Positions 34,401 through 64,000 of a stretch of DNA of 64,000 nt are shown one piece after another. The number at the start of each line of letters is the position of its first letter. Position 1 is the first letter of the stretch. A model generated the notes under the pieces. It made no database searches, was not told the origin of the DNA, and worked only from the letters and a program-made list of their open reading frames with translations. The translations under genes and the position numbers were made by a program. Source of the DNA: Terebella lapidaria (taxonomy: Eukaryota; Annelida; Polychaeta; Terebellida; Terebellidae). Location: assembly GCA_949152475.1 (NCBI GenBank), contig OX424555.1, positions 11,054,868 to 11,118,867 of the forward strand, written 5' to 3'.

Positions 34401-37400
34401 TTTGTTTCATGTCAAAATTATGAACAATTTAGTTGCTCTTAATAGAATAGTTTATTTACTCTAAATGCATAAAATGGTAACACATAGACTAGTATGTTTT
34501 ATATTATTGTAAGAGAAACAAACAACTAAACTCACTTCAGTAAAACAATTCAATTTTAGTTTCCCCAACAGGGAAAAAATTGAATGTAGTCGTTCTTTGA
34601 TAATTTACCAGAGAATTTCCTTTACTATATCATATTCCAACTTCACTACAAGAGTCGACTTGGATCCATTCTGAAGCGGCTGATGCTGTCATACTTGTTC
34701 CATTTGCTGGCGGTATATAAACTTTTGACAGGGTCGAAACAGAAATCTGACGCAATTACATGAGCTTTTTACTCATGGATTACTCAACGCTTTCACGATG
34801 ACTAAACAATAATGTAACTGTGTAAGATCGACAAAAGTTGAGGACAATACATATCCAAACAACATTCATCACTAGTGTACGGTTAACTCCTTCGTGAATG
34901 GAAAACGTGGGTTATCAATGAGACTGATACTCAGGAACATCGGCTAGAGCCGTCTATACTGACTTCAAAACCCCAACCTTGCATATCATATTCAGAAACC
35001 AATAAGGAATCACAAGTACATATACGTGTATTAAGATTCGCCCGACAGTTACAGTTAAATTGATTGGATATTTCAGAATATATATCTAGAGAAGATAACA
35101 TGTAGGTAACTTGACTCAATTGTTATGTACAGTTTTCAATAAATCTAACAAAGTGGAAAACGTATGACGAAAGGGAAGTAGGTGCACAGCATCCAATTCC
35201 GTATAATTTAATATTATGTAGGCCGTCTGCGTATCTGAGCAGACACCCGCAGAAGAATATCAATGTGTCTAATAAAGATTATACCTTAGTAACTTTCGAT
35301 TCGAGTTGAAGATCTGTCATGACAGAGCAGTGTTCACAAAGATGTACATGTATCTGAACGGACAGAGGGAGAGATGGATGAACAACCTCATTCAAGCATG
35401 TATTTCTGTGGAGAAGAGGCCGGTGTGTATAATCACCCTTACCTCCAACTTCACATACCCAAACATACATGAAGTGCTTGCTGCTCAGAGAAACCTTACC
35501 AGTAAATCCAGCATGGTAAGTATTACAATCTGATCAAAATAGGTCCTTTCATTCTCAAATCCCTACCATCTTCAAATCTATTCAATTGCATTCAATGAGG
35601 AAATCCCCAATACACAGCCAATAAATTCACTCTTTATTGTAGGTTTATTTACACGTGTATGTTTATTTACAATACTAAATTATTGGCTGTGTTTCGTCCC
35701 GTTATACGTTAGTGGCCCATACAGTCTGTCCAGGACTCGTCAGTTGGGTGCAGACCATTAACTTGAGCCAATCCTTCACTATCGTGCAAACAGCAACAAA
35801 AATGTATGTTTTATGGATAACTGATCCAAAATGTTGAACAATTGAGTAATTTGACATGCACATTTACCGGTACATTGAACACTTTTTTCGACCATTGAAC
35901 TTGTCATACCTAAACAAACGAAATCTTAAGTAATCTTGAGTAAACATCTCCAAATGACCTAACACTTAATTAACATGCATACTCTCAAACAATCGATGTC
36001 TTAAGTAATAAGTGTGCTACAAATGAGGTAACACCTAATTAACAAGCATACTCTCCCACAACTATATTTTTCGAGGGGTGTTTTTTGTAACTTTCCAGGG
36101 TTTTTCCAGGGGCATAGGAAGACAATTTGACCAAGAAAAAAATTTTGATGCAATAACTATTGCACTCGCCACAATAATTGTTAATTACGATGATAACCAT
36201 ATCCAAAATATAAAATGTGTTCTTTGCAAACATCACATTCCAATATTCATGGGACAAAATTTTGTATTCCAGGTATGTATTTTGCGATTTTCGCGAATGG
36301 ATAAAATTCCCAAACTTTACAGTACAGCAAAAATAAATACACATGAATATACTACTGTAACAAAACCATGCAACTGCCGCGCTGAAACGTTCGTTAGGAA
36401 CGGTCACGTGATCTACAAAGTCCACTTGCGAAGACACCGTTCGCGGAAGAACCGTTCGCGGAAGCACGATTGCGGAAGCATCATCAGCGGAAGCATCGTT
36501 CGCGGAAGAACCGTTCGCGGAAGCACGATTGCGGAAGCATCGTCAGCGGAAGCATCAGTCGCGGAAGCACCGTTCGCGGAAGAGGAGCCTTCGCGGAAGA
36601 ACCGTTCGCGGACGCAGTCTTCACCACGTGGAGAAGAGTGCGGAAGATACGTTCGCGGACGAAGATGCGCGCGCAGCCACCCTGGCTATATAAGGGAGAG
36701 CGGACGGCCGCTCTGAGAGCACTGCAACAGCGACATCGACCGTGGGGAGATCGTCACCGCCACAGCCAAGGGACTCGACGAACTCCGTGCGGACGACTCC
36801 TTCTTCAGGGCCTTAGAGTCAACCGGGATTAGACCGACTACCTGGAGAAACCATTCGACTAAACGGGACGGGAAACTTCAACGGGAAGGGACAGAGAGAC
36901 GCCGCCGGCTAAGAACTCTTTTTAGTTGTGCCCTCGTGCACTATTTATTTTTGAAATGTGATCATACAGTGCTCCATGTCTGAACTTCATATTTGTACGT
37001 CACGTGGGTGACCAGCCATACAATTGTAAGTTGATTTGATGTATATAAATCTTCAATTTATTTACATCTGAGTTGCTTCTTGCCTAAGTGAAGCCGGTAA
37101 GCTACGGAGTGATGATACACCAGCGTTGGGGGACACCAATTTAGTGACGGCTCTCGAATCACAACGAGCGGGAGTTACATAAAGTCTATACGATCAGAGA
37201 AACCAGGTTTTTTGGGCCACACCGAAAACAAGTCATTACCAAACGTCACAACTTGGTGCCGTGACCAGGATCCCCGAGGGTCTACTGCCAGGGAACGAAC
37301 CTCAGCATCACTCATGTCCGGCGAAAACGACGAAACTGCCCCAGGGAAGACAGGAGGTGAAGAGGAAGACTCTTCGCGGACGGCCTCACTTGCGGACGAG

Positions 37401-40400
37401 GAAGACAGCGGTTCGCGGAAGCCGACCTTTCCGGAAGAGGGAGACGACCGTTCGCGGAGGACGTTCGCGGAAGACGACCGTTCGCGGAAGACGTTCGCGG
37501 ACGACCACCGTTCGCGGAAGACGACCTTGGCGGAAGAGGCCGACGACCGTTCGCGGAAGACAACGTTCGCGGAAGACGACCGTTCGCGGAAGAGCAGCTT
37601 CACAGCCAGGGGTAGACGGGACGTTTCGACGAGTGAGGAGCAACCAGGGAGGTCGAGACCTTCCATGGGCCAGTCGACTAGTCAACAGAGACCCCGGAGC
37701 CAGACACCCGACAACCGTTTTCTTTTCAGACACGACTCTGGGTGGCAGCACGATCGAGACAGGGAGAGGTCAACCTACCTTGAGAGCGTTAGGAGGGGCC
37801 CCGAGTTCCGACGAGTGCTGGGACCGGAGTACGTCAATCTGGACGGGGAGGACGGCGAAATCTGGGCGAGGAGGGATCGGCTACAGCTACCGGAGCAGAG
37901 TCCAAGTGTGGCACCGCCAGAGAATGCAGCATTGAGACGGCTTTGGGACTGGTCCCAGCAGCAGTCTGGTGCAACAGGGCAGCGGTCTGGTGTGACGAGT
38001 CGACAAACGGGAGTGACTGGAGGACGGGTTACTTGGGCTCCGACCCAAGAGAGCAGCTCGAGAGGGAGAGGACTTTTCACGGAAGAGAACATTCGCGGAC
38101 GAGAGGCATTCTTCGGCGACAGGGACGCTTGCAGCCGGGGATCCTTCGTGGATGAACGGGCTCGTGGGCGAGGGGGAGTCTTTGGTGACGAGGACGCTTG
38201 TGACCGGGGAGGGCCCTTCGCGGACGACCACGTTCGCGGACGAGGACGACTCGCAGAAGAGAGTGTTCGCGGAAGAGAGGAGTCTTCACCCAGACGGCGG
38301 CTCGACGAAAGGAGTGATCCAGGCGACCAATCTTCCTTTCCAGTTTTTCAGAATAGACGGGGAAGACCATTCGCGGATGAGCCGGTTCGCGGAAGACTCG
38401 CGGAAGATGGCGTTCGCGGACGTACATCTTTTGTGGAGGGACGTCTCCGAGACATCTTGGCGGACGAGCCCGTTCGCGGAAGACTCGCGGAAGACGGCGT
38501 TCGCGGAAGAGGCCTGTTCGCGGAAGAACTTCTTCGGGAGCTGTTGGCGGAGGAGTCCGTTCGCGGAAGGTTCGCGGAAGACAGCGTTCGCGGAAGAGAG
38601 GGGTCTTCACCCAGTCGACAACCGAGACAGCCAGCCTCCTGGAGAAATCCAGCTTCTATTTCAGTCACCCAGGGAGGCCGGAGACAGCACCCTTTCTCAT
38701 CATCGGGCGATGAGGGGCCTTCATCTGATGGAGGGACCGACAGCAGCCATGGTTACCCAGGACGGGGGAGGAGACCACCGAGGCGGGGACCGCCGCTGCA
38801 CCGACGAAGCCCTAGGCCGAGACGGAGGCAGGAGGACTCGTCGTCCGAGGACAGCACAGCCTGGAATCAGAACGGCAGAAGGAACCGGAAGATGCTGACC
38901 CCTGACAAGTTCGATGGGACTTCCATAGAGTGGCCGGTGTACCGGGCCCACTTTGACGTCATCGCAGAGGTCAACGGATGGAGCAAGCGGGAACAGGGCG
39001 TCTACTTAGCCGGGAGCTTGACAGGAGAGGCGCGACGAATGCTGACCAGCCTGAGTCCTGCAGACCGGAGGGACATCGACGTTCTGACCGACAAGCTGAC
39101 CCTACGATTCGACCCTGACTGTCAGGAGGAGTCCTACAAAGCGACCTTGGGACAGAGAACCCGCAGGAAGGCAGAGACACCCCAGCAGTACGGCTATGAG
39201 TTGCAGCGACTGGCCGGCCGTGGTTATCCGGATCTGAACTCCGCAGCTCAGGAGGCTATCGCCTTAGACCACTTCTGGAAGGGCCATCCAGATGGGGACA
39301 TGAAGGTGATGGCGCTCATGAGGAAGATGAAGACCATGGAGGAGGCCATAGCGTTCGTGACCCAGTACGAATGTGTCAAACCCAAGCCTGGGAAGCCGGT
39401 GATGTCCATAGAGTCGGAGGACTCCGAGCCAGCTCTAGGACGGGTCCTACAGCTATTAAAGAACCAGCAGGGAGGCGAGATTACCACCAGTGGGCAGCAG
39501 AGCAACCAGCCGAACGTAGCGGGTCTACCCAGACTTCCCTACTTCAAGGGGCTCTTTGAGAGCCAAGACAGGAAGCTGGATCGACTAATCGAGCTGTGTG
39601 AGCAGGTGCTATCCATCAAGCCGAGGGCCGCCACTGCTGAGGACAAGGGACCAAGCGCTAGGCCGGGACCAGATGACTGTTGGTACTGTGGGAAGCCGGG
39701 TCATCGGAAGTACCAGTGTCCAGATCGGCCGCCACCTCGGACCAAGGAGGAGCGCTTGAGTCGACTAATCGAGGAGATTGGTGAGCGGAACAGTTTGACA
39801 GACGAGGAGTCGGAAAACCAGTAGGGCTCATACCAGCCCCCAACCGTATGGGCCATTGGCAGGTGTGTGCACGGCTTCACAGGCGAGAAGCTCGACGAAG
39901 ACGTGAAGAACACATTGCCAGGGGGGAATTTTTAGTTTCACAGATTTTTAATAGGTTTTTCCGGTGTGCATCCGAAGTAACTGGATGGGCGCAGGAGGAG
40001 CTCGAGGATCGAATTCTCGACTATTTGGAGGGCAAGCCTGTCAACACAGACGGGAGTGCCAATGTACAGCAAACCGATGGAGCCGTGGAGCGTCTAATGA
40101 CCCGCGGAGACGTCGACGAAATGCAGACCGATGGAGCCGTGGAGCGTCTGGGGACCCACGGAGACATCAACGAGGTTTCTGCTAGCAGCAAGGAGAACCA
40201 ACAGGTTACAACCTTGAGGCTGGAGGCTGCGAAACAGCAGGGACCCCCCTATGCAACTGAACCACAAGCGGCCGTGAAAGAGGAGACGGAGGGCCGGTGG
40301 AGCGGAATGACCAAGGGGCCAGCGCAGCAGCTATTGCTGGTGGACGACTCATTACTTATCCGGAGCGGCGGTTCCGAGGGGAGTGATTCCCTTAAGACTG

Positions 40401-43400
40401 ACAGAGAGGACCAGGGTGGTGCATCACTGTGGGTGGACGACTCAGTACTTATCCAGGGCGGCGTCCCTGAGGAGAGTGGCAGCTCTCTTAAGATTGACAG
40501 AAATGGCCAGGTGGTGTCGCTGTCAGCCGGTGCCCGAGGCACATTGGCGTGGTATGCGGCGTGCCACGTTATGGGGAAGGCGACTCGTATGTTGGTGGAC
40601 ACGGGTGCCTCTTCCACCGTTCTGGACGAGTGTCTCTTCGACCAAATGGATGACGAACATAAAGCAATGATAAGGCAGACGAGAATAAGGTTACGGGCAG
40701 CAACCGGAGACTACTTACAGGTTCAAGGAGAGATGACAGTTCAACTTCTACTGGGCACACGACTCGTGTCGGCAGATGTACTGGTAGCCAAACTAGGGAT
40801 CCCGGGAGTGTTGGGGCTTGATGTACTTCAACAGATTGGGGGACAGCTGGATCTGCGTAAGGGCGAGTGGCAGGTGGGCGACACTACCGTAGTGATGAGC
40901 TCGGGCCACGAGGACGCCGTCTACACACTGGTGACGGAGGAGACGGTCGTCTTGCCACCCTTTTCAGAGATGATGGTGGACCTCAAGCTGACAGGAAGTG
41001 AGGGAGGAGTTCCGAAGGCCGGCCTCGTGCAGTCCGCAAGAGAGCCGTTGGAGGACGACCCCCTCGTAGTGGGACGAGCCCTGGTACGACCCCGAGGACG
41101 CCTGGTACCGGTGGTACTTCTGAACGCCGGCGCTGGAGCTTGCACTGTGCTGATGGGGACCATCCTAGCCGAGCTTCACGGAATAGAGGCCGTGATCGAC
41201 CTGGGATTTCGTCCCGATGGAGGGAAAACAACCCAGAATGAACCTAAAAGGGAACAGTGGTACCGGGAGGAGAGCGGGAGGGAGCATGAGCCCCTTACAC
41301 CAAACTCCACCAAGTGGCGGAACCGGACGCCTGAGCAGCCCGAAACCAGAGTGCACGCCATGCACGCAGAATCGTCGACGAAGACACCAGAGTGCCCGGA
41401 GCATTTAGAACCGCTCCTGGAGGGGATGCATCCGAACTTGACGGAAAAGGAGGTGGAGGTCGTCAGCGATCTCCTTCGACGCCACCAGCAGGTCTTTATG
41501 GGACCAGATGGGAGGTTGGGCCGGACGTCCCTGGCGAAACACGTCATCGACACGGGAGATCACCCCCCGATCAAGCAGCCTCTGAGGAGAGCCCCGTACT
41601 ACCAACAAGAGCTGATCGAGGACGAGGTCGACAAGATGTTGAAAGCTGACGTTGTGGAGCCAAGCGACAGTCCATGGTCGTCTCCCATCGTGCTAGTGAA
41701 AAAGAAGGATGGTGCACTGAGATTTTGCGTCGACTACCGCCGTCTAAATGATGTCACCCGGAAGGATGCGTACCCCCTGCCTCGAGTCGACGAGAGTTTT
41801 GATACCTTGTCAGGAGGACGATATTTTTCGACGCTAGACTTGGCTAGTGGTTACTGGCAGGTCGAGATGGACGACAGGGACAAGGAGAAGACGGCGTTCA
41901 CTACCCGTAGTGGACTCTATCAATTTAAAGTGATGCCGTTTGGATTGGCGACGGCCCCGGCTACTTTTGAACGTCTAATGGAGCTGGCACTGAGGGGACT
42001 CCAATGGAAGCGTTGTCTAATTTATTTGGACGATGTCGTCTGTCTTGGAAAGACTTTCCAAGAAGCCGTGGACAACCTCGAGGACGTGTTCCGGAGACTG
42101 CAGGCTGCCGGGCTGAAGCTGAAACCCGCCAAGTGTGAGCTGTTTCGACAACAGGTCAACTTCCTGGGCCATGTCGTGTCCGACCGAGGCATCCAGTGCG
42201 ACCCTGCCAAGGTCGAAGCTGTAACAAAAATGGTTCCTCCGACCACCTTGACAGAACTAAGGAGCTTCCTTGGGTTCGTGGGGTACTACCGCAGATTCAT
42301 CCCTGACTTTGCCACCCGAGCGGGACCCCTCAACCACCTGTTAAAGAAGGAAGTCAACTACCATTGGAGCGAGGCTCATCAGCAGGCGTTCGAGGCGCTG
42401 CGTCAACCCCTGACCGAGCACCCCCTGCTGGTGTACCCTGACATGGACCAAGAATTTATTTTAGATACTGATGCTAGCGGCTACGGAGTGGGAGGCGTCT
42501 TATCCCAAGTGCAGGACGGACGAGAGCGGGTGATCGCCTATGCTTCCAGAACCCTGAGGGACACCCAGCGGAATTACTGCACCACCAAGCGGGAGCTCCT
42601 GGCCGTCGTCAGTATGATACACCATTTCAGACATTTCTTGTGGGGGAGAGCGTTCTTACTACGAACCGACCACGCCTCTCTCAAGTGGCTACTGAACTTT
42701 CGGGATGCGGAAGGAATGATCGCTAGATGGGCAGCTCGCATCGCCAGCTACGCCTTCAGGTGTGAGGTCCGACCGGGAGTACAACACGGGAATGCAGACG
42801 GGATGTCCAGATGCCGACAGTGCCGGAGACCGGATTGTCCCGCCCCTCGCCACACCACAAGACCCGAAGGAGAAGAGGAGGCCTGTCCGACTCAGGAGGA
42901 GTGTCCCCTACCCCTGGAGGACCTCTCTGACGAGGATCTGCTTCCACCGATCAGCGGAGAAGGATGGAGCCCCGGAGGACCTCAAGTTAACATCTTGCGG
43001 GAGGTCCCTGTGGAGCCCTGGACGGAGGACTACTATTGCGGAGATGGAGTCGGGATATTCCAGATCTGGGAGGTGCGCTGCCAGGAGGACCCGAGGACGA
43101 CTACCCAGCCGACCGAGGAATGCCTGCCTGACCGGAGCCCCCCACAGACGGAGGAAGGAGCCAGGAGCGTCTGCAGAACCCTGCATCAGCTCCGCCCCTC
43201 TGCCTGGGTTTGGTTTCTCCTGATGATGCTCCTCGCACTGCATGGTTTGGGACCGGAGGTTGTGGCCGGAGCAGCGATCGGCGCGACGGCCGACGTGTGG
43301 ATGCGCTGCCGAGAGGAGCCCTTCCTGGACCCATGCCCCAACCCTGTGATCCGAGATCCAGACAAACAAATGCTAGCTGTCACGCGGGCTATGGCTACGA

Positions 43401-46400
43401 GAGGACGCCGGAATCCGATGGAGGGAGCCCCGGAGGCCCAGGTCCTGAATGGTTATTCCCAGGAGGACCTAGTGACCCTTCAACGAGCCGACCCTGAAGT
43501 TGGAGGCATCCTCGGGTGGAAGAATATTCTCACTGAGAGACCTGCATGGCCCGAAGTCAGAACAAAAAGTCAGCAAATGAAGACTCTGTGGCAACAGTGG
43601 GACCAGCTGGAGCTACGTGATGGGCTTCTGTACCGGCGGTACCAAGCGGCTTGCCAGAACGCACCAATCCATCAACTGGTCGTTCCACAGGTCCTGAGAC
43701 GCGCCGTCATGAAGGAGGTCCACACCGGCAAGCTGATGAGTCACCAGGGAGTCACCAAAACAGTCCACCGACTAAAAGCGAGAATGTACTGGCCGGGTAT
43801 GGCGAAGGACGTGGAGCGTTGGTGCCGGGAGTGCCTGAAGTGTAGTGGGAGAAAGCCGCGACCGGGGCCCAAGTACCACCCCATGGGAAATCTACCGGTA
43901 GGCGATCGGCTAGAAAGGGTGGCCATGGACATTTTGGAGCCTGGAACGATCACCAATTCTGGGAACCGGTATATACTGGTCGTGGGTGATTATTTCACCA
44001 AGTGGACTGAGGCCTACGCTCTACCCAACCATGAGGCTCAGACGGTGGCGGACGTCTTTGTGACTGAGTTCGTGTGCCGCCTGGGAATGCCAGCCAAGAT
44101 ACACACCGACCAGGGACGAGAGTTCGAGAGTAAGCTTTTCCTTGAGATGATCAAGATCCTAGGAGGGGAGAAGACTCGGACGACCCCTTATCACGCCAAA
44201 TCAGACGGGATGGTCGAGCGATTCAACCGGACCCTGCTGAACCTTCTGGCCGTGGTCGTGGACGAGAACCATGACGACTGGGACGACCATCTGCCCTACG
44301 TGATGGCGACTTATAGAACATCAGTACACGAAAGCACCGGGTGTACACCATTTCGAATGATGATGGGACGGGAGGCAACCACCCCATTGGACCTGAGGTA
44401 CCGGACGAAACCGGACGATTTGGGAGGACCAGTCCCCGAGTGTGCGTCCGAATACGTCGAATGGGTGAAGGAAGCCACCATACAAGCTCACGAGACTGCC
44501 CGAGAGTGCCTGAAGACGGCTACGGTGCGACAAAAGCGCCATCATGACGTAAAATCAGCCGCTCGACATTTTCCGGTGGGCACCTGGGTGATGTATTGGT
44601 ACCCTCCAAAGGCTAGACCAAAACTAGGACTAGGGTGGACGGGACCTTATCTCGTTGTGAAGTCTCATCTCGGATGGATGGTGTCCATACAAGATCGACC
44701 CGGTGGCAAGATTAAAGATGTCCGGTGGCAAGATTAAAGATGTCCACATTGACAATATAAAAAGGTGCTGGTTCACCCCTGAAACCGACGCCTGGATACC
44801 CAATCCGGACGATGTGACCCCAGTCCGGACCCCCAGTGATGACGAGGGACGAGTGGAAAACAGCGGGAATGCAGTCCAAACGATGTAAACGATGACGGGA
44901 GCGTTCGCGGAAGAACCGTTCGCGGAAGCAGCGTTCGCGGAAGCAGCGTTCGCGGAAGTACCGTTCGCGGAAGCACGTTCGCGGAAGCAGCGTTCGCGGA
45001 AGAACCGTTCGCGGAAGCAAGCGAAAAACGTTATTTCGTTCCACGACAAGGCTTTTTCCCCCAGATCCCTGGTCCGCGCCTTTTCTATATAAGCAGGCCG
45101 GCCTACGATTCCGTCATCACTTCAACCATGAACACACCAACTCTGCAGATCATTGAGATACCCGCATTTGCAGACGAAGATTTCGGGGACGTTCCAGACT
45201 TCGACTTGGCTGACTTTCTGCCCCTTGAAGTCGACAAGATGAGCGACCCACCTACCAAGCCTGACCGAAAGCGGGAGCGCTCGAGGAGCCGGGAGCGTCG
45301 TGAGGAGCCCCGAGGAGGTCGACGGTCCCCTGCCCGGAAGTTGTCCACCGAGAGAGGGCGACGCTGGTGCAGCCCCTGCCGGATCCACGTGACGGCATCC
45401 AACTTTAGCCGACACGTGGCGACCAAACACACGCAGAAGGAGGGGCGGCACCTCTGCAAGATGTGCAGCCAGCGATTCGCCCGCCGAGCTGACAGAGACC
45501 GGCATGAGACGTCGCATGCCAGCGGCAACACCCTCAAGCCAGGACGGAGGAGGACGACGACCGACACGCCCGTGTCCGACCCCCGAGATGGTCCGACTAC
45601 TGTGTCTGCCCCTGAGCTGAAGACTGTCAGCTTTGCGGCCAGCGGGACGACCAGCTCCACGCCGTCAAGCCCCCGGGAGGACGCCCCCAGGTCAGAGGAC
45701 GCCCCAGACCCCGAGGACGACCCCCCGAATAGCGAAGAGGAACCGGAGTCTCAGCAGGAGCGGAGAGAGGCGGAATCCCCGGAGGCCCCCACCCCCGAGG
45801 ACGACGGACCCCCCGTTCCCAGAGACTCGGCCCCTACCTACAAGCCCCTAGACCTGAGTTGGTACCTCAAGCCCGTTCCGGAGGAGGAGGACCAACTGCG
45901 ACCGTATGTGGAGGGCCTGGGCAGAGCGGTCACTGCCGGAGAGAAGGCCCTGGAGGACCTGGCATCCACGATAGCCATGGGACGACGCCACCTCACCCAA
46001 GCGGAGGCTCGGCTCCAAGCCAAGGAGGAGCAGAGACAGCTCGAGGCCGAGGTGCTGCAGCTGCGAGGGGAGGCCTCTCAACGAGAGAAGAGCCACCGGA
46101 AGGAGCTGCGAGCCCACGTCCGAGAGACCAAGCTGCTCCGGGAACAGCTCCGAGCATATACAGACACTCGGGACAGGCTGGCGGAGACGTCCGAAAGCGA
46201 GGTGGATCGCCAGTGAAGTGGAGGGAGAGAGCCCTGTAAACATCAGACAGGCAGGAAAAGACGAAGAAGGAGGAAGAAGAGAAAAGAAGAGAGAGAAAGG
46301 ATCAACGGGGACGTTGATCTCCAGAAAGGGTGGAGTTGTAACAAAACCATGCAACTGCCGCGCTGAAACGTTCGTTAGGAACGGTCACGTGATCTACAAA

Positions 46401-49400
46401 GTCCACTTGCGAAGACACCGTTCGCGGAAGAACCGTTCGCGGAAGCACGATTGCGGAAGCATCATCAGCGGAAGCATCGTTCGCGGAAGAACCGTTCGCG
46501 GAAGCACGATTGCGGAAGCATCGTCAGCGGAAGCATCAGTCGCGGAAGCACCGTTCGCGGAAGAGGAGCCTTCGCGGAAGAACCGTTCGCGGACGCAGTC
46601 TTCACCACGTGGAGAAGAGTGCGGAAGATACGTTCGCGGACGAAGATGCGCGCGCAGCCACCCTGGCTATATAAGGGAGAGCGGACGGCCGCTCTGAGAG
46701 CACTGCAACAGCGACATCGACCGTGGGGAGATCGTCACCGCCACAGCCAAGGGACTCGACGAACTCCGTGCGGACGACTCCTTCTTCAGGGCCTTAGAGT
46801 CAACCGGGATTAGACCGACTACCTGGAGAAACCATTCGACTAAACGGGACGGGAAACTTCAACGGGAAGGGACAGAGAGACGCCGCCGGCTAAGAACTCT
46901 TTTTAGTTGTGCCCTCGTGCACTATTTATTTTTGAAATGTGATCATACAGTGCTCCATGTCTGAACTTCATATTTGTACGTCACGTGGGTGACCAGCCAT
47001 ACAATTGTAAGTTGATTTGATGTATATAAATCTTCAATTTATTTACATCTGAGTTGCTTCTTGCCTAAGTGAAGCCGGTAAGCTACGGAGTGATGATACA
47101 CCAGCGTTGGGGGACACCAATTTAGTGACGGCTCTCGAATCACAACGAGCGGGAGTTACATAAAGTCTATACGATCAGAGAAACCAGGTTTTTTGGGCCA
47201 CACCGAAAACAAGTCATTACCAAACGTCACACTACTAAACTGACTGATATATGTACAAAATACCAGTCTATATTCTGGGCAGATTTATAATACTGGTATG
47301 CTTAGTAGTGTCTGTCACTATCGTAAAGATGCAATGTTGTTTAGGTACAGCATCAAGTAAATATAACATCATTTGCTACTCAAATGTACGATTCCTGGCA
47401 CTCTCTGCCTCGACAATGTGCAGCCCCGTGCATGTCACATTGTCAGTCACTGCATGTACTTATGCCTACTTCACACGGACAGACGGATGGATGCTCTGTT
47501 GTCAACCAACGCTCCAATTCACCTCCACCCCCACAGTTAATACTAGTAGCCTATAGGGGACCATTCTCTGTGCTGGCTGAGATGCGGTGGCTGGGGGGGG
47601 GGGGGGGGGGGGGGGGTTGTATGCTCACACATAATAGTCAACATGGTCAAAGCCTACAATATTTGAAAGACTGTTTAATATCTCGTTAAATAAAATTCCA
47701 GGGTTGGAGAGGGGACATCCTCCCCGCTGGATGTGCACTGAATGTTCGATATTGATACATGTGGGAAGGGGGGGGGGGGGGGGGCGGGGGGAGGGGTGTA
47801 GGCGTGAACACCATCTGATTATTTATTCATAAGTGATGACGTAGTGTATCTGCTTAGCCAATGAAACGCTGTTGTTGCGAACCTCAACCTCCCCCCCCCC
47901 CCCCCCCCACCCCCCCTCAAAAGCACGATGCTGAAGATGGTGGATACCAACTCTCCGAGATCAATCTTCCGATCTGACACAGTCGAAGCGACACGATGCC
48001 GTCAAGATTTTTAAAACTGAACACTTTGTTTCAGACAGTCTACATGCAGCTTGCAAAGTTGGGCCATTATCTTCACGGTTAATATACATTTGCTTCGCTT
48101 GGTAGTAGACCGGGAAGGGCGAAGGGGGGGGGTGTTGAATTGAAGTACTAGTAGCCAGAAAATCTGGCTAAAAGCCGTTGTTTGATCCCGCCGCATTGCG
48201 ACAGTGAAAAACAAGCCGTGAAATCTTTCGACCACCGGGAATCACATTTAGATACTAGTATGTTGAAAACAGTTGGAAACCTAACGATTTTGCGTGGTAT
48301 TCTTTTGACTGATAATCTTCCAGTATTGCGCCATCTGGTGAATGTATTTAGCATTGATGTAATTTTGGACAATTCATGGATACCTTGATCGCAAGTGCTG
48401 CCTCTGGCGGGAGAAAGAATCTCCTGCCTAACCGACAGGAATTTATCTAGCGTAAAAATATTCCCACGTTCTTACGTGAGGTTTTTTTTACTCAAATTTG
48501 CAATGTTCTAGACTGATAATCTTTTCATGTAACATGATCATGTAACTGTCCACGTTTTGTAAAATACTGCAATGTTATACAACATTACACAGCCATGTAA
48601 CATTGGAAAGTATTGCCCCCTATGTATGAAATAACCCATCCTCAGACATGTGCCTTCGCTCCCATGTTTTTGTACAGAAGAGTGCAATCAGTTGATGTTA
48701 TCAGCTTTTATTGTGCAGTCTTGTTTTGTTACAAGAATACACTTTAAATGTTCTAATAGGTAACGCGACTGGGCTTGCACCATTTGGACATCTGTATCAC
48801 ATTCAGGAGAATGTACATGTACATGTATGGAAAATAATATCAAATAATATTTTTGTAGGCAACAAGCTTTGTTTGTAAAAAAAAAAATAACATGGCCATC
48901 ATATTTAATGATTACATCAGATGTACATGTGTACATGTATATAGTTCCTAAAAAAGTATAATATGTACATGCACAGATACATTTGAAAACTGAGTCAATG
49001 ACATTGGACATATGTGTAATGTAATGTACATTAATATGTGAAATGTTTTAATCTTAAACAGAAGGAACAAAGATTAAATTCATGTACATTGTGAGAACCA
49101 ATTGTGAAAGCTTAATCATGTTAATAGGAAGGTAACACTAATCACTTCATTACTGTAGCTCTACAAATTAAACATGCTGTCTTTGCACCATTCACAGTGT
49201 AATAACAGATATGGTATGTACAAAAACAATGACATCACAGCCTCTTGGCTTGTAGCTCTATCTAAAGCAGGGATAAACAGGCCCATAACACAGAATTACA
49301 CGCGTCAAGGTGTAGTTATCTTTTCTTACACTAAATCTGCATAATTAGAAAGTGTATGTGCAGGTTTCCAGTGTTACAGCCTAGGCACCTGTTTGCTGTA

Positions 49401-52400
49401 AGCAGGGCGTGGGACCGTGCCATTGTCTGGGGCTGGTGGAGGGCTGGCCCTGAGGAATACCTTGTCTGTCATTACCTGGGACCACTTCTGTATGGTAGCC
49501 TAGCACCTGTAAGCCTTGGGACCAGTGCTAATGTCACCACAGGGCAAGGAGACTTTTGTATGTGTGATATTGCGTCACTATCTATCCAAGTGAAGCCCCT
49601 TGAGAGTTGACATGTGCTGACATATACAGGGGTGTATGTGTATTGGAGGTAACTGCTACACTGTTGTTGTTTTTCGGCCATCTAAGAATTTTTCAGTGAA
49701 AAAGTGACTTCAATTACTCAATGATGCTTTCTTTTATGATTATGTGTTCTGGCCTTCAAGATTTTTTTTTTCCAAAATGTATTCTGAATCCGTAGTCTTA
49801 ATTCTTGAAGACCTGCATTAAATTTTTAAATCAAATCGTGTGATTATTTTAAAAATTCAAATTTAAAATATGAAAACTGGCAGATAAATGAAGGACCCTG
49901 GCAAAGCTTCTGTAAACATTAAGCAATAAATCATACACTTTCTGTTTGCACCCGAAACTGTCAAATGGCAATATACAACATCAATAACTGATGCATCTTC
50001 TGTTATTATCAGCTAATATTTCCTGACATTATTTTCTCGAGTTACTGTCACAAATACGGACTGCTCCTATACCTGACACCATTGTTGTGTAAGGCCGATC
50101 ACTCGATCATTGTTTATGACAGCAAGTGGCTGTCGAGGATATTTGCACAGTAATGAGTAAGTTTGTCAAGTGTGCTGAGGCTGTTTGTACACAGTTTAAG
50201 CCACTAAATGTTGGGTAACATTTTGAAAGTTGGCGGAGGATGCTCCTAGTCGTGCTGTGGTTATGTCACCGTGGGTAACCGAGGCCCACGCCGGGAGATT
50301 TCTCTGGTGACAGCCAGACAGGAAGTCAATACCAGGTCAACATGGGTCAACAAAAGCCTCCTCTCTCATGGAACTATTGACCACCCATATGCCATTTCCT
50401 GAAAATTAGAAAGAAATTCCCCGTTGATGGCCCGTGGAAGCGTTGTTACTTGATATTTCAGAAGCCTGTGGTGCTTGTTACATCACACAGAAAAGCGATC
50501 ACCCTGTGTGGAGGCAGCCATAATCACTGCCAGGTATTTAGCGGTCTATTAGAAACAATTTTAGGAAAGTGAAGCAGCCACTCTACAGTTCCAGTCAGTT
50601 GACGCCTTCAGATTTCCTGCCATTTCATGAAAGAACACGTGGATGCTTGTAGTCTGTCACTCTGGCCTCCCTTACATGTACATGTAGCATGCTTACTGAC
50701 CATGTGGTGTGTGGTCACAGTCCGAGGTGGAGGCAAACCTCATTAAACATGCCCAAAACAAATGTGTGTGTGTAAAAACTGGAAATCATGGAAGAAAAAG
50801 ATGATTTAGAGGTAATACATGTTCCCGAGTCTCAAATTTGGATCATAAACAATTCCGCTACAAGGAATTAATTTGAATTATTAACAAATTCACTGAACAA
50901 TTTTTTATGGAAGACTGTCATCCAAATTTCAACTGAAATAATAAGTTTGTCACAATTTATTTTGAAACAAGGGTCATCCCAAGCTGACTCAGTGACTGGA
51001 CAGAGCCCCAGTTGTTGCTCCCTGATATCACTGACAAAGTTGATTGTGGAGTTACTTCATTAATCTAGTGACCATTATTCCGGCTGAGTGGCGGCTCATG
51101 ATCAGTCTATTCTGGACATTCGGTCACCGTGGCGACTGGCCTGAGGGTTGGCCCTGTCGCCTCCCCCTCTGGCCTCTGCTGCCTCATTGCTTGGGTAAGC
51201 TTTGCTCATGGCAGATTTAACGCAATCGATGCCATTTGGCTTTTTGCGTAATACAGTGATGGTATTATTTCGGGACGGAATTCACAGTGCCTGTGCATAG
51301 GGGGTCTGTGCTTGTTACCCCCTCGGCTCTGGCTGGTGATGGGCGGGACAGAGGCGGACTCTCTGGAGTATGTGGGATCTGTCAGAGGTGGGCACAGGTC
51401 AACACAGGATCAAACATTCATGACATACGGGATGTGTGTCCTGTGCTGTCCTGTAATCATCAGGGGACATGCAAATACGGAAAGTCACAAAGTTACATCA
51501 CTCATAATGATCAGCTACATACACGTGTATGGTTGACAGTGTTGGTCTATACATGTAAAACTTCCGGTAAAATCTACTAGTACATGTATATTTCTTCTCT
51601 ACATGTACAATGTATGTTGAGTGCACAGGAATCACTTCCTTCTACTGTAGCTACATTTATCTGTAGACAGACATGTTCTCCAGAAAAATGCCTCACAAAA
51701 ATACTGTGACATGAGTAAGTTATGAAATTAAGAAAAATCACCAAATTTAGTCATATTTCTAAAATTTTGTTGTATAGTTCTGCACTGATTAGCAATCCGA
51801 TTATTTGTCCTCAAACAAAATTTGCTGACTCCTGCTAATCCGAATGCAAGCAGAGTAATTCTACGTTAACCTGGCAACAATAGACAGCAATTGCTTGTGT
51901 GTGCCACTAACCATGCTAACAAGGTAAATGAGATACAGTACTGATTTCGCAAAACCTCACTAGCCATGCGAATGCTACATGCTAAATGCTAGGCCATGCG
52001 ATTACGTGCGACTTGATGCTAGCATCAAATCGCATGGTGCGACCAGTGGGCGCGATGCCATCGCATCAGGCGGCCGTCTTAGTTGAACAGGCGAGCATTG
52101 TCTCGCACAGATGCGCGCATCCTTTATTTCGGATGCAAATACTGACTTTAATATGAACTGAAATGAAACACTGCATTTTCCCATACGATCTACATGATAC
52201 AGACTGTTTATAAACCACTCGACCATGTGTTTGCGAGCATATGCGAGCATATAATGGCCTTCACAAAAAATGCGAAATGCGAAATGCTTTTAGTGCACCA
52301 CAGTGCCAAGAAGCAATGCTAGCATCGAGAGATGCTCGCATACACAATGCTAGCATCAAATCGCATGATGCTACGTCAGGCGAAGTTGGGCGAACACGTG

Positions 52401-55400
52401 CTAAATGCCAGGTGTCCCATGCTGGCATTTTGGTGAGGTTTTGCGAAATCAGTACTGTATTGTGCCAATTAAATGGCCGTAGATTAGAGATTTTGGCAGC
52501 CACCCTGACTGTGAGTTAATCATTTGGTCAGTCCCTCAGGGGCTTGCTCTGTGTCAGTCTCTCTGATCAATATCCTGGCTATTTGCATGTTAAACCTATA
52601 CTTGGAAGGCCCAGGGAGACCATATTAACAACTGACTTAACCAGGTTAGGTTCCATATGCCAATTTATGTCCAGTATGAGAGGAAATAAGTTGTCGACTC
52701 CCGGCTCCTCCCCGCGAGGTCCCGCACGGCTTTGATGGGTAGCCGGGGAGCGGGGTATGTCGAGAGTCCCCATTGCTATGTGTGATGTTGTGAGGAGCGT
52801 GGCGTGACTTGGAGACAGTTACCGTGGTGATGTAAGGTCTCTCCCTGTCAGCCAATCTTACATAATGTCGCATGTCTGCAGAGCCGCATGCTCGTGCTAG
52901 TGACACCGGCTTTATGAGGTGTCAACGCTGGGCAGGCTCGACCCTCGGACGACTGATAGACAATAGCATGGCTTCATTTGTATGTAAATGTGAAAGTCTG
53001 TGACAAGTTTGTCACTGTGTTCTAATTTACGAACCATGGCAGACTGATGCTAAACCTTGACCATGATCTTGTATTTCTGTGTTGTCAAAATCATTCTTTT
53101 ATTGGCTTCTACATTTGTGTACCATGTTGAACAGGATTATTGTCAATTTATGATAAATAATTCATTAGCTCATTAACATTTTTATTGGGTTGTAACTTTT
53201 ATAAATTGCATTCATGGGACATGTCTCCTGATTGCTATACCATACTATACAATTTATTTTTAGCGCTGAAAATTTCTTTAACAATTTTAACTTGGTTACA
53301 TCACACATTACAATCATACACAATGGTACACGTTCACATAACATTCGTGAAGTTATGTAAAATCCAATAAAGCCATACCAAGCAACTTTTACCTGCTGAG
53401 GTTAGATGGTTACACATGATTGTTTATAAATGGTCACATACAGTGTAACAGTCCGTCACAGATTGACTGCTGTCATAATCCTGGGCCCAGTGATGCAGGG
53501 TTACAGAACTATAACTGTTACTTATGTAACAATTAGAACACAGCTCTCAAAGTGCCTAAGTATTTGGAGCAAGGTGAAAGTTTGACCTTGTCCTGCTAAT
53601 GTTGTGCAATACATTCAAGTGATTATCAGAAAATAATAGCAATATAACACTTGTTACTTGTTTGTTATCTGCCTGTTGTGGGTGGTGTATATACCGGGTA
53701 ATACCCGTGATAAATGTTTGCTTGCCCTAAACTGATATTTGTGGACACAAGAAATAATATTATAATACAATGGAGATTAATATTGTCAATATAGCATTAG
53801 AGAAAAAAATTAAATTTGGATAAAGTTCAGAATACTTATTGGAATTTTCATTGTTGAAAAAAATATTGATTCTTTTATTTACATTGTTGAAAATGTGTAT
53901 TCCTTTGTGTTCCACATAAAATAATGTTACAACTGACGAAATTACATTGGGTCCTAGTACATAATTACGTATATATGTACATGTGATAACAGGCCATAAA
54001 ATATTTATTGTTTCCTAAAATATTGTCCTCATACAATAAACCATCACTATTTTGTATCAGTTTTATCCATATAAATGTCACAAAGCCATAAAAACGCATT
54101 GATAGGCACAATGCTCTGTAATTCCAGTGTAACATGTATAACATGTAGAAGTATAGGCTAAATGTAGGCTATATTCTTGTTTCCTTTCATAGATGACAAG
54201 TTTATCATGCATCTCTCTGAGATAAATTTCAACTGCACCTATCTGAGATTGATCAGCTTGTGTTCTGTACACACAGGATGTTGTTTCTAGTTGATTGCAG
54301 ATTTGATCAGTAAACAATTATCTGACAAAAACATACAGTTTGATCACTGCCTAGTGCAATGAGAGGTGTTGTTATTATATGATAATTAAGTTGATGATTG
54401 TCCATTGTCTTGCACTGATGACTTGTACAGTTTTTACAGGGTGTTGCATAACTGCTGTGTTGGGAGACAATAGAGCAGGCCATGGATGGATGCTATCACT
54501 GGAGTATCACTCCATGCTGGCGTCATTGGCTCTAACAGGTCATGCAAAGGTTATAAAAAGGTCACTTTACTCATGATATAAAAAAAAACTGCTCAGGAAT
54601 GCACATCAAAGCCCGCCGAGGGACAGCGTTTTGAGAGCGCTAAAGTGATGGAGCGAAATGTGCAAATGAGACAAGAGTGGAGGCTTCAAACGTTTTGTTC
54701 ATGAACCTGTCCCCACGGTTACGTCAAATTGGCAGCCAGGCGAAGCACCCCCTGGGGTGAGTTGGCCTGAGTTTTTGAATCATTATCTTTCAAGTGAGTG
54801 GGGACCTTACACAAGGTTACATAAGATCTGTTTTAGTTGAGGCTTACAAGGCCAGTTGTATCTTTCTGGAGGGCCAGAGGAGTTTGAAATTCACCCTGCT
54901 CAATTGTTGGAGGTGACTTTCAATTCTTTTGAAATTTGAAAAGCCCATGAGACATAATAGGTGATAAAATCAGTTCGTGGGTGGGGGTGGGCTTGAGGGT
55001 GGGGCAGGAGCAAGGGGAGGGGGTGGTACTGATTTCACACCAGAGCCTGGGCAAGAGACAGTAGGGGTCAGACTAATTAATAACTGGTAACTCTCTGCTT
55101 TATGATTACAGCACAATGATACTTGCAACCTCTCACCATCTCCAAGGTATTCTTGAAAGGTATTCTTGACAAAACCAGCTCTTTCCTTTTAGCATGTTTA
55201 AAAATTCAAGTAAAACTTCAAATTTGAAATGGCAGTTGCTGGGTTTTTTGTTGTTGAATTAACTGAGTATTCACCAACGATTTAGGAAAGTGAAAGCTCA
55301 AACTCTCTCTAGGAATACAATATTACAATATGTCACCATGATATTCCAATTTTGCACAGATTTTTAATAAAATAACACATTTATGGAACATGTACAGGGA

Positions 55401-58400
55401 TACAGGACCGGTTGGTGTGTTTTGACCTCCCCTCTACCTTCTGTGTTAGAAATGCATGATTCAGTGCTCATCAAGGTTTAATGTGACAGGTTGAATAAGC
55501 ACCTGTACAAGTATGCATTATTACCCATGAAGCATGTAATAATGAGGCTGTGATACCTGCTGTGAGGATTCAATAAGTAGGGACTTCAACTGAGGTCACA
55601 CCAACTGTCAGGCTTTTGGCGGGAAACCTTGCATACTGAAACAAGTGGACCCACTGGACATGCATCCAATATAATATAGAACAGAATGTCAAAAATCAGA
55701 TTGAGATCAATAATAATAACCTTGATAATATAAACCATTCCCCAGCAGTACTTACAATAATCATCTAACCACCATAATATATTAGTACAATGCTAATGTT
55801 TAAACCATTTAATATATTGAACGGTTTTTGTATTGGAGCTGGAAATACTGATGACATGAAGTGTCACTGAAGCTGTGCTATATTATGGCTGTGTTGAATT
55901 TGATCATGAAATAAAATAGTCTGTATCAGTGAGAGCCCCCTGCCACCAGAGAGTGGTGACGAGGCTCGCGTGTGTCTCGCAGATCACAAGTTACCAACAC
56001 GTGTCACTGTTTGTGCTGGTGCTGGTTACTCCAATGACACCTGTCCCCTGGTCACGTCACTGTCACGCCACCCTCGCTCTGTTAGTCCGTTACCACGACG
56101 ACCTCCCTAACACACGAGGCTCACACTACATCTACGTAACTCGCCCGCCTCGTGTGCAGGGGCCTGGTCCGTGATTAATAAGATGCTCGCCACAAGATTG
56201 CCATGCTGCCAGTTGGACGAGTTATGTCACATTACTCAAGCTTGTGATGCAATGTTTTGAGCGGGAAGTTTTCTCGGAGGTGATCTGCTCTTTGTTGGTT
56301 CGATAAATTGGAGGGAAAGCCCAGGGATTGGAAGCCATGTGGCGGTGTTGGCTGGCGAGGCGATGCAGCAAGGTTGCCGAGAGGGCAACCTTCCTCGGGG
56401 CCAATTTATTTAAAGTATCCTTTAATTCCATGGCCGGACAGCCGCTGGTCTCTCCAGGCAGCACGCTGCACAGGAATTTGGAAGTTGCAGAGGGATGGGG
56501 GGAGGGGGACGGATTGGATTCAGGCTGGAGTGGTCAATGACATGATGAGCCACTGCAAAATAACAATAATGTTGAATAACACTGCAATGTCAGATGATCA
56601 TTTTTCATCATGTTCATTGGAAAACATGAATTACTCAACAGACATAGAAGTCTATGGCGCCCCGTTCGTGCCACCAAAAAGGGCATACGTATGAAATAAA
56701 AAGTCATACGTAGGAGATACTAACACATACGTATGAGATAACAAGTCATACGTAGGAGATACTAACTCATACGTAGGAGATACTAAGTCATACGTATGAG
56801 ATACTAACACATACGTATGAAATACTAAGTCATACGTAGGAGATAATATGACATATGTAGGAGATACTAAGTCATACGTATGAGATACTAACTTATTTCA
56901 TACGTATGAGATACTATCTCATACGTATGAGTTAGAAAAAAAATAAATTCTCTTTTTTGGTGGCACGATCGGGGCGCCATAGAAATCAGAAATATAATTC
57001 TGAGTCAACTAAAAGATTTCTCAATATTTTGAGTACTCATGAGTGACTTGAATATTATTAAGCAATCTGGAAAAGAGTCGTATTTTCCTGCATCCTCATT
57101 GATTTCTTTGTACACAAATATTGTGGACAGTGGGATTATAAACCTTAACCAAGATGTCCTCAGACTGATATACTTTACTTGTTGTAGCAGGTTAGAGATG
57201 ATGATTACATTTGTGTACTTGATGTTATGCAACCTTGTCCAATGGTGGTGCTGTTCTTCAAGAACAAATTATTGCATCATTAAAAACAACTTAGCATCAT
57301 GACCATTGCATCACTTCTATGTAATCTTGTTAGAGACAAACTATTTGCTCAACTTACCTGTACTCCCAGGTCTACAGTTAGTATATACACTGATACAGTT
57401 AGTATATATTAGCAAAAATAGTTGATAAAAGATTTGGTATTGCCGCTCATTGTAAATACTGTCGAGTGGGTCAGAAGTATGGTCTTTAGGTGACACCAGT
57501 CTATGACCCAGTGTTACTTTGTGTATTTTGTAGTTGTTCCGTGTGCTGCTGGGTCAGAAGTATGGTCTTTAGGTGACACCAGTCTATGACCCAGTCTTAC
57601 TTTGTGTATTTTGTAGTCGTTCCGTGTGCCGCTGGGCCAGAAGTATGGTCTTTAGGTGACACCAGTCTATGACCCAGTCTTACTTTGTGTATTTTGTAGT
57701 CGTTCTGTGTGCCGCTGGGTCAGAAGTATGGTCTTTAGGTGACACCAGTCTATGACCCAGTCTTACTTTGTGTATTTTGTAGTCATTCCGTGTGCCGCTG
57801 GGCCAGAAGTATGGTCTTTAGGTGACACCAGTCTATGACCCAGTCTTACTTTGTGTATTTTGTATTCATTCCGTGTGCCGCTGGGTCAGGAGTATGGTCT
57901 TTAGGTGACACCAGTCTATGACCCAGTCTTACTTTGTGTATTTTGTAGTCGTTCCGTGTGCCGCTGGGTCAGAAGTATGGTCTTTAGGTGACACCAGTCT
58001 ATGACCCAGTCTTACTTTGTGTATTTTGTAGTCGTTCCGTGTGCCGCAGGGTCAGAAGTATGGTCTTTAGGTGACACCGGTACATAACCCAGTCTTACTT
58101 TGTGTATTTTGTAGTTGTTCCGTGTGCCGCTGGGTCAGAAGTATGGTCTTTAGGTGGCATCAGTCTATGACCCAGTCTTACTTTGTGTATTTTGTAGTCG
58201 TTCCGTGTGCCGCTGGGTCAGAAGTATGGTCTTTAGGTGACACCGGTCCATAACCCAGTCTTACTTCGTGTATTTTGTAGTTGTTCCGTGTGCCACTGGG
58301 TCAGAAGTATGGTTTTTAGGTGACACCGGTCTATGACCCAGTCTTACTTTGTGTATTTTGTAGTTGTTCCGTGTGCCGCTGGGTCAGAAGTATGGTCTTC

Positions 58401-62781: not shown

Positions 62782-63660
62782 TACTCCCCTCGCCCACGCG
62801 TCTTTCTCAGACTATTCATGTCTTCTGCTACAAGCACAGGATCTTCTATGTACAGTTTTATGTTTATAGACCTCAGTGTATAATGTATAAGTGAACGAGT
62901 GATCATATTGTGTAACATAGAGAAGAACACGGCATAATATACAGTGCAGTATGTAGTGTTCTTAATTTAAACGATAATGTGGAGTAAACAGAAAATAGCT
63001 TACTAGTACTGTATGGATACATATTATGATTCATAGTATAATTCATACTGCATAATTATGTCTTGTATATAAATGTATTATGTGTACATGTACATTAACA
63101 GCACATTCATCATTAATTTTGTTGTGCTTGAACGTTGGAAAGTTGAGAAGTGTGCAATTATATTGTTTATCTTCGACTTTAACGTGTAATTTATTGAATT
63201 GTTTACTTGAGCATGTTCTTATCTTATTCTATAGCATTGATGCACGATTACAAGCAGTGAACAAACTTTTCAGTACATAAAATGATTTCAACTGAAAGAA
63301 GTTCTGAAACACACACAATTTCCACACACTCACCATATATATTATATTGTCGTATTTGGGCAACATCCATTCCAAATATCTTATTCGGTAAAAGTAAGTG
63401 ACCCAGCTGATATACATGTAAGCGTGCTCCCTGGGTGATCAGATTTGATTGGACATCCCTTACTGACATGCTTTGTACAAGACCACCCCATTGGATGATG
63501 TCTGGACCTTGACAATCTTCACTGAAATTATCCACGGTTGATTTGTAAAATATTAACATCAACGAAAACATTTTGTTGAGCACAGATTTGTATTTTTTGT
63601 AGCGATTCACATATATGCAGGTATGATTGTCAAATAATAAATAATCTTTTGCAAAGTGTG
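62782..63660 (+). other. MON2 3' UTR
   Basis: Non-coding AT-rich sequence after the MON2 stop, ending near a consensus AATAAA and a GTGTGTTC-type downstream element. The exact cleavage site is not determined. Confidence 0.55.
63636..63641 (+). terminator. Candidate MON2 poly(A) signal AATAAA
   Basis: AATAAA lies 855 bp after the stop, followed about 15-20 bp later by a GT-rich stretch (GTGTGTTC). No stronger combination was noticed in the downstream 340 bp. Confidence 0.5.
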
Positions 63661-64000
63661 TTCAGATGCTCATGAAACTATAAGTACAAGTTGAATTTAT
63701 TTAAAATATATGAAAGTATGCCCAAGCAAGCTGATCATATATTAATCATACATGTATGTCATCTACAAGAAGGTAAGGCCAAAAAAAAAAAATTCTATGT
63801 TTCTGGTTACAATGGTCTTCCAAAAGTGATGCGGTGATGCGAATTTTTTTTTTTCTTTTTTTTTCCTAAATCGGCACGAGTCGTGTTAACCGAAGCAATG
63901 AAAGCTACATTTGCCTCAGTAAAACACCTATCTATGTTAAATATATTATGTGCATAGAACATCTTACTGTTTTTTTTTTATATTCTAAACAAAACATTTG
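63661..64000. other. Downstream flank
   Basis: AT-rich sequence with A and T homopolymers near 63780 and 63845. No gene is seen. Confidence 0.35.

Follow-up and report, generated by a model that had tools for sequence, protein, structure and literature searches.

An annelid Ty3/gypsy retrotransposon with a likely self-encoded, two-finger regulator of its own promoters

Does a retrotransposon that carries a zinc-finger gene use the product to control itself? The question is raised by a Ty3/gypsy element in a 64,000-nucleotide stretch of the genome of the polychaete Terebella lapidaria (contig OX424555.1, positions 11,054,868 to 11,118,867, forward strand), which we call the window and whose positions are used below. 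The element is bounded by long terminal repeats (LTRs) and has, after gag and pol, a third open reading frame (ORF3) for a protein with two C2H2 fingers. An earlier note had proposed that this protein binds a short motif clustered ahead of its own gene and in the LTR and so controls both promoters. From comparisons within the window, across the host genome and among related families, we conclude that ORF3 is likely, with a probability of about two in three, to be a self-encoded, family-specific DNA-binding regulator of its own LTR and internal promoter, working like Tas of foamy viruses and VANC of plants.

ORF3 and the motif clusters of the window element

ORF3 lies after pol at 45128..46216 (+ strand) and encodes 362 amino acids, as the earlier note had stated. 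The protein begins with an acidic N terminus and a basic, RS-rich (arginine/serine) stretch, followed by two C2H2 fingers (residues 81–101 and 110–130), a low-complexity middle and a probable C-terminal coiled coil. The acidic N terminus claimed in the note was borne out; the coiled coil claimed with it, judged from composition only, can be called probable. Finger 1 (45368..45430, +) has T, S, N and R at positions -1, +2, +3 and +6, and finger 2 (45455..45517, +) has R, A, D and R. Pfam gave sub-threshold zinc-finger matches only (best E 0.011), and the closest solved chain by sequence was the two-finger Tramtrack domain 2drp (E 0.028).

A TATA box, TATATAAG, at 45086..45093 (+) starts 42 nt before the ORF3 ATG, exactly the distance that had been reported. 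It is preceded by eight copies of the 11-mer GTTCGCGGAAG at 44903..45017 (+), spaced 14–15 bp apart; the eight copies had been counted correctly, but their start had been placed at 44899, whereas the first motif begins at 44903. The same motif is clustered in the 5' LTR, where 12 GCGGAAG cores, all on the + strand, occupy 36439..36661, upstream of the LTR TATA box TATATAAG (36687..36694, +), again in agreement with the note, which had overlooked a third cluster of 18 cores in gag (37411..38596, +). With at most one mismatch, GTTCGCGGAAG occurs 43 times in the window against 0.42 expected, a count reached by none of 100 shuffles. All 51 copies of the GCGGAAG core are on the + strand, with none on the - strand, and every one of them lies within the element (12 in each LTR, 18 in gag, 1 in pol and 8 before ORF3). 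In prior-free counts of 7-mers, GCGGAAG tops both the LTR (12) and the internal promoter (8); in gag it is counted 18 times, and the commonest 7-mer there is TCGCGGA (25). The 23 copies of TTCGCGGA in 37251–39824 are spread over the three reading frames (7/9/7), encoding RSRK-like, VRGR-like and FAED-like peptides. Because a protein constraint would keep one frame, it is the nucleic acid that recurs, and a protein-level repeat in gag is ruled out.

The window element is one of many. The 761.6-Mb host genome holds at least 113 intact copies of this ORF3 with about 100% identity and no stops; as these scored copies are the best of 1713 candidates, broken copies are under-seen. In 34 copies read in detail (the window copy included, likewise drawn from the best), the internal TATA box TATATAAG is kept in all 34, the motif is present 7–9 times in the internal promoter and 8–15 times in the LTR, and no minus-strand motif was found. 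Their ORF3 has 0–5 mismatches per 1089 bases. This family, which we call A, is young, and its arrays vary in length among copies. A one-time capture of a host gene, an outcome that the note had set against its own proposal, is ruled out by the 113 intact copies together with the diverged ORF3 genes of other gypsy families.

Related families, their words and their fingers

Queried first with a pol relative (P0005) and later with pieces of ORF3, pol and integrase, the same genome yielded further families, which we read at their 3' ends. An ORF3 built to the same plan lies at the same place after pol in gypsy families B (L035), C (L036), D (L040), E (L052) and F (L053). The ORF3 proteins are related to very different degrees, with pairwise E-values of 2e-26 (E–F), 1e-21 (B–D), 6e-11 (A–F), 1e-10 (A–E), 2e-9 (A–D) and 1e-7 (A–C), but just 0.006 for A–B and 0.5 for B–C; all these values are generous, with the low-complexity filter and the composition correction switched off. 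Acidic N termini are found in A, B, C and E. Family J (L058), found through its ORF3, is a decayed relative of E, and family H (L055) has two fingers that lie in different frames in the copy read. Family I (L056) has a 260-aa post-pol ORF (L056:2641-3423, -) with a single C2H2 finger. LTR pairs were confirmed in A, B, C, E (98.4% over 1219 bp) and F (100% over 1008 bp), and the LTRs of D, H and J are presumed from one side. These are at most eight families from one host genome with kinship among them, and thus not independent.

Words vary among the families. In A, B, C, E, F and J, a family-specific short word in arrays, the trait of VANC-type systems, is present ahead of ORF3 as well as in the LTR (the J LTR being presumed), and in all six the words precede the internal TATA box. 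In C, TGCGGAG is the commonest 7-mer of the LTR (24) and of the internal promoter (9), with 19 in gag, and the C word occurs in both orientations (TGCGGA, 17 on + and 23 on - in L036), which favours DNA over RNA as the form that is read. In B, CGGTGCC occurs 9 times in the LTR and 3 times before ORF3 (not above shuffles there), with none in the 5' internal part read; the pattern nCGGnG, predicted from the B fingers as described below, occurs 8 times in the internal promoter against 2.5 expected (z 3.8). The word is TGACGGGG-like in E, [A/C]GGGCGA in F and TCGGGTC in J. Families A, B, C, E and F each have a TATA-like box 34–50 nt ahead of the ORF3 ATG (35 nt in F), which 0.2–2% of shuffles also yield, and J has one 44–48 nt ahead of the ATG assumed there; over these six families the distances run from 35 to 48 nt. 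The LTR clusters of A and B and the first six F words lie just upstream of the LTR TATA box; in J, no LTR TATA was found with the pattern used. Thus the co-occurrence of ORF3 and motif anticipated by the note holds in A, B, C, E, F and J, but not in D (no clear word), H (LTR only) or I (no cluster).

We then compared the words with the fingers. In the published recognition code, as set out in a review, the 5' base is read by finger residue +6, the middle one by +3 and the 3' one by -1, and Asp is assigned to unmodified cytosine (PMC12264921). The words were known before the predictions were written, so that only the code is independent. Two versions of the code were used, the published one (PMC12264921) and a second one, which differ in D, E, F and H. 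The published code predicts GCGGAn for A and C, nCGGnG for B, nCGGnA for D, GnGGGn for E and F, GCGGnA for H and nnnGGn for J. The observed words are GCGGAA in A and GCGGAG in C, and ACGGTG in B. Scored as matches minus mismatches, the own word reaches 5 of 5 in A and C, 4 of 4 in B, 3 of 4 in D and F, 2 of 4 in E, 2 of 5 in H and 2 of 2 in J, and the chance that a random code fits equally well is 0.018 for A, 0.0063 for C and 0.086 for B. Of all finger–word permutations, 180 of 40,320 reach the observed total with eight families, and 64 of 5,040 without D. With the second version of the code, the own pattern is enriched in the LTR and internal promoter of A (z 9.0 and 5.7) and C (z 19.0 and 10.8), and nCGGnG in the LTR of B (z 4.0); the H pattern is enriched only with its 5' base left free (z 7.3). 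The predicted finger specificity thus clearly fits the word in A, B and C, and the fit elsewhere, partial or uninformative, is at best suggestive.

Decayed relatives of C suggest that ORF3 has been kept as a protein. The ratio of nonsynonymous to synonymous substitution rates (dN/dS) of ORF3 between C and its three closest decayed relatives (L047, L045 and L046; 64–78% identical) is 0.064, 0.088 and 0.125, and between C and the other decayed relatives it is 0.19–0.26 in four and could not be computed in the fifth; in all comparisons dS is close to saturation. These low values indicate that ORF3 was maintained as a protein in the source lineage. In L047, L045 and L046 the -1, +3 and +6 residues are unchanged in both fingers (L045 is without one finger 2 cysteine), and in the five others the fingers are altered or broken.

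Several results speak against ORF3 as a family-specific regulator. In the eight C relatives (2.3–3.0 kb each), TGCGGA on either strand is counted 29, 17, 14, 7, 7, 5, 3 and 0 times; the word is kept in the closest and lost with decay. All 10 of the 10 post-pol types read have a finger-like ORF, leaving no control that is free of ORF3: F, G, H, I and L057 were each tried as such and rejected, since each has a post-pol ORF with a finger-like motif. No motif cluster was found in the single-finger family I, which, with D and H, speaks against a universal rule. Family D has no significant word (AAACCGG, 4 in the presumed LTR, equals the shuffle maximum and is absent before ORF3), and an expectation-maximization search yielded only part of a motif for H and none that could be used for D. 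In H, TTCGGTA-like words occur only downstream of ORF3, in the presumed LTR (NCGGTA 14 against 2.5 expected), and miss the predicted 5' base. No TATA box was found before ORF3 in D or H, and the majority of the words in the C and E LTRs follow the LTR TATA box instead of preceding it. As for the fingers, the random-code chance is 0.108 for D, 0.1185 for F, 0.66 for E and 0.46 for H and for J; the patterns predicted by the second version of the code for D, E, F (GGG in E and F) and H (in full form) are not enriched in their own families; and nCGGnG, the B pattern, is also enriched in C and E. The core common to A and C may be shared by descent, and collapsing relatives raises the permutation fraction to 0.011–0.125, which weakens the finger–word agreement. 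Finally, the one-way orientation of all A motifs could also be explained by a role in RNA.

The frame around ORF3 is that of a complete, young Ty3/gypsy element at 36356–47231, whose 895-bp LTRs are identical in a pairwise comparison. The 5' LTR (36356..37250, +; 895 bp, ends TGTAAC...GTCACA) exactly matches the 3' LTR (46337..47231, +; motif cluster 46420-46642, TATA 46668-46675), and the 4-bp target duplication CTAC flanks the element at 36352-36355 and 47232-47235, as a 4-bp duplication also flanks the family B element. The primer-binding site TGGTGCCGTGACCAGGAT (37254..37271, +), which we take to resemble the 3' end of tRNA-His, follows the LTR identically in B and C, and the polypurine tract AGAAAGGGTGG (46323..46333, +) has near-identical counterparts ahead of their 3' LTRs. 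The gag ORF spans 37314..39824 (+), its first in-frame ATG read by eye (the ORF listing starts at TTG 37212), and has near its end a CCHC knuckle just short of the Pfam cut-off (E 0.0018). The pol region (39848..44737, +), comprising protease, reverse transcriptase, RNase H and integrase, has the domain order gag-asp_proteas, RVT_1, RT_RNaseH, Integrase_H2C2, rve, all above Pfam cut-offs. This order, together with TG..CA LTRs, primer-binding site, polypurine tract and 4-bp target duplication, places the element in Ty3/gypsy; the Troyka lineage was dropped, since its 3-bp duplications and termini do not fit. No env-like Pfam match was found up to E 1, neither a foamy-type env nor an errantivirus-type fusion glycoprotein, and between pol and the 3' LTR there is no second sense-strand ORF longer than 130 aa except one overlapping frame running across the LTR.

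Among 5.8 billion proteins, of which short-word-sharing candidates were scored, the only ORF3 homologue found was P0001 (99% identical, on a 1767-bp contig of unclear kind), and no relatives were found in viral contigs. In pieces of pol, the P0003–P0007 clade is 50–67% identical. Eight relatives on contigs of prokaryote metagenome-assembled genomes (35–46% identical in pol) have no C2H2 motif after pol, three of them holding fewer than 100 bases there.

Other observations concern single families. In finger 1, A, C, D, E and F (five of the six families listed) have 11 rather than 12 residues between the second Cys and the first His. Family G (L054, same type as L057) has a large post-pol ORF of at least 567 aa (L054:3-1715, -; L057:1985-3688, +) in which Cys and His are unusually spaced (CPFC...H); CGACCC-like words are numerous within this ORF and in its surroundings. 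It is a second and different ORF3 type. Family F has a further array of AGCGGGCGACC-like words far downstream of the LTR promoter (L059:3200-4400; end of L053), and the family B copy is embedded in a satellite array of about 158-bp units (L035:1-1764 and L038, 5' of the LTR). L060 and L061 are decayed E relatives with 1 and 3 copies of GACGGGG (both strands). L043 is a decayed B relative with a single CGGTGCC, an uninformative count because its internal promoter is unalignable and an insertion interrupts its LTR just at the point where a cluster would start. L042, considered as a possible family, proved to be a host multi-finger gene.

A feedback model and its alternatives

In the model that we favour, ORF3 would be made from its own promoter just downstream of pol, the first dose perhaps with host-factor help. 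Fingers 2 and 1 would jointly read a 6-bp site, GCG-GAA in A, and the protein would bind the clusters upstream of the internal and LTR TATA boxes, raising or protecting transcription from both. ORF3 would thereby feed back both to the gene that encodes it and to the LTR promoter, the source of genomic RNA. The acidic N terminus hints at activation or anti-silencing, and the probable coiled coil suggests dimers that bind arrayed sites cooperatively. Given diverged ORF3 proteins and different words, each family would control mainly itself, the family-specific words keeping each system private, as has been proposed for VANC in the passages cited (PMC5735166).

Base composition bears on the anti-silencing variant of this model. 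The CpG observed/expected ratio is 0.66 in window positions 1-36000 and 0.56 in 48000-64000, 0.95 in the element and 1.34 in its LTR; in decayed C copies it falls as low as 0.56, and the TpG/CpA ratio of the first flank (1-36000) is 1.26. The depletion of the flanks suggests that the host probably methylates CpG in the germ line. Every family word named contains CpG, and finger 2 has Asp at +3 and Arg at -1 in A, B, C, D and H, a pair that would read the CpG of the word in A, B and C, and in D and H judging by residue. A bolder proposal, which we regard as possible though doubtful, is that a large animal gypsy lineage has private, co-evolving two-finger factors straddling a family CpG word, which would bind unmethylated copies and keep them active, methylated ones staying silent. 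Such a system would be a self-sustaining, family-specific anti-silencing switch.

Among the alternatives, the one that survives best is that ORF3 binds the same motifs without activating, as an auto-repressor or as a chromatin tether steering integration. C2H2 proteins are often repressors, and a tether could dock at element copies; the acidic N termini (A, B, C and E) and the placing of the clusters close to promoters are more in keeping with activation, though not decisively, and we consider repression or tethering unlikely.

Less probable again, and in our estimate decidedly so, is that the clusters are sites of host factors, for instance an ETS-type protein reading GCGGAAG, or of a host silencer, and that ORF3 does something else. 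GCGGAAG does resemble an ETS site. Between pol and ORF3 there is also a site like a cyclic-AMP response element (CRE), TGACGTCA in B and C (L035, L036) or TGACGT in D (L040), absent from the internal promoters of A, E, F, H and J as cut. The CRE-like sites indicate that host factors probably act in B, C and D too, possibly at a host-driven start-up site. The word, however, varies by family and, in A, B and C, matches the family's own fingers; a host factor would not change in step with ORF3.

It appears very improbable that ORF3 works on RNA, as a binding or export factor of the kind of Cer1 CERV or retroviral Rev, with the word as a packaging or export signal in genomic RNA. All 51 A cores are on the sense strand, many in transcribed gag and the 3' LTR, and CERV is an accessory protein needed for RNA export according to the part of the report cited (PMC10309623); but the C word stands in both orientations, in A, B, C, E, F and J the words precede the internal TATA box, and the A, B and C fingers fit a DNA code. 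It is just as improbable that the arrays are neutral tandem-repeat expansions, copied among LTR, gag and internal region by template switching, and that the finger agreement is chance: copy numbers do vary among element copies (7–9, 8–15), and, taken singly, only A and C have a finger fit below 0.05, the fit being weak with relatives collapsed, but one and the same word recurs in separate places of an element, differs between families and stands upstream of the internal TATA box in six of them.

Comparison with known systems

No Ty3/gypsy element combining a C2H2 ORF3 with clusters of its cognate motif was found among the titles and abstracts listed by searches of an open-access library, which is weak evidence of absence, as subscription papers and repeat databases lie mostly outside it. 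Should the regulator be real, LTR retrotransposons beyond retroviruses would have dedicated sequence-specific regulators, and the several families in one genome would be natural replicates of protein and site changing together. Two questions would become open to direct test: how a transposon comes by a private promoter, unusable by the host and by sibling elements alike, and whether anti-silencing factors on a par with plant VANC are encoded by retrotransposons of animals. The families would also supply natural two-finger domains whose words are already known from the genome sequence, with two different predicted sites among the ORF3 proteins of A, B and C.

Parts of this arrangement are known from other elements, here as described in the cited portions of each report. 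In Grande and other plant Ty3/gypsy elements an extra ORF lies between pol and the 3' LTR with its own promoter, and the Grande product is nuclear; that ORF is antisense and without clear similarity to known proteins, and the cited portion mentions no cognate word array (PMC7264820). LTR elements of bdelloid rotifers are animal and have a non-env ORF3, but of esterase or exonuclease type, not a DNA-binding regulator (PMC5408684). CERV of Cer1 in C. elegans is an accessory nuclear protein that controls the expression of an LTR retrotransposon, but it acts in export of genomic RNA and arises from a spliced mRNA (PMC10309623). TnpA of maize Spm, compared by description, is a transposon-encoded activator of its own element tied to demethylation, in a DNA transposon (PMC10398659).

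The remaining parallels are VANC and Tas. The VANC proteins of Arabidopsis VANDAL elements recognise a short, one-orientation, arrayed word in their own element; VANC21 and VANC6 have different words, and their arrays gain and lose repeats. According to the passages cited, VANDAL is a plant DNA transposon with sites mainly in noncoding sequence, whereas the annelid word, compared with it by description, is also found in gag (PMC5735166). In foamy viruses (Spumaretrovirinae), Tas/Bel-1 is an element-encoded DNA-binding protein whose gene has an internal promoter and which acts in positive feedback on this promoter and the LTR; in the cited part of the source it is not described as a C2H2 protein, and its LTR and internal sites are without obvious conservation, in contrast to the shared word seen here (PMC7390438). 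This comparison, too, is by description, and the foamy virus internal promoter lies within the env gene, whereas no env-like match was found in the annelid element.

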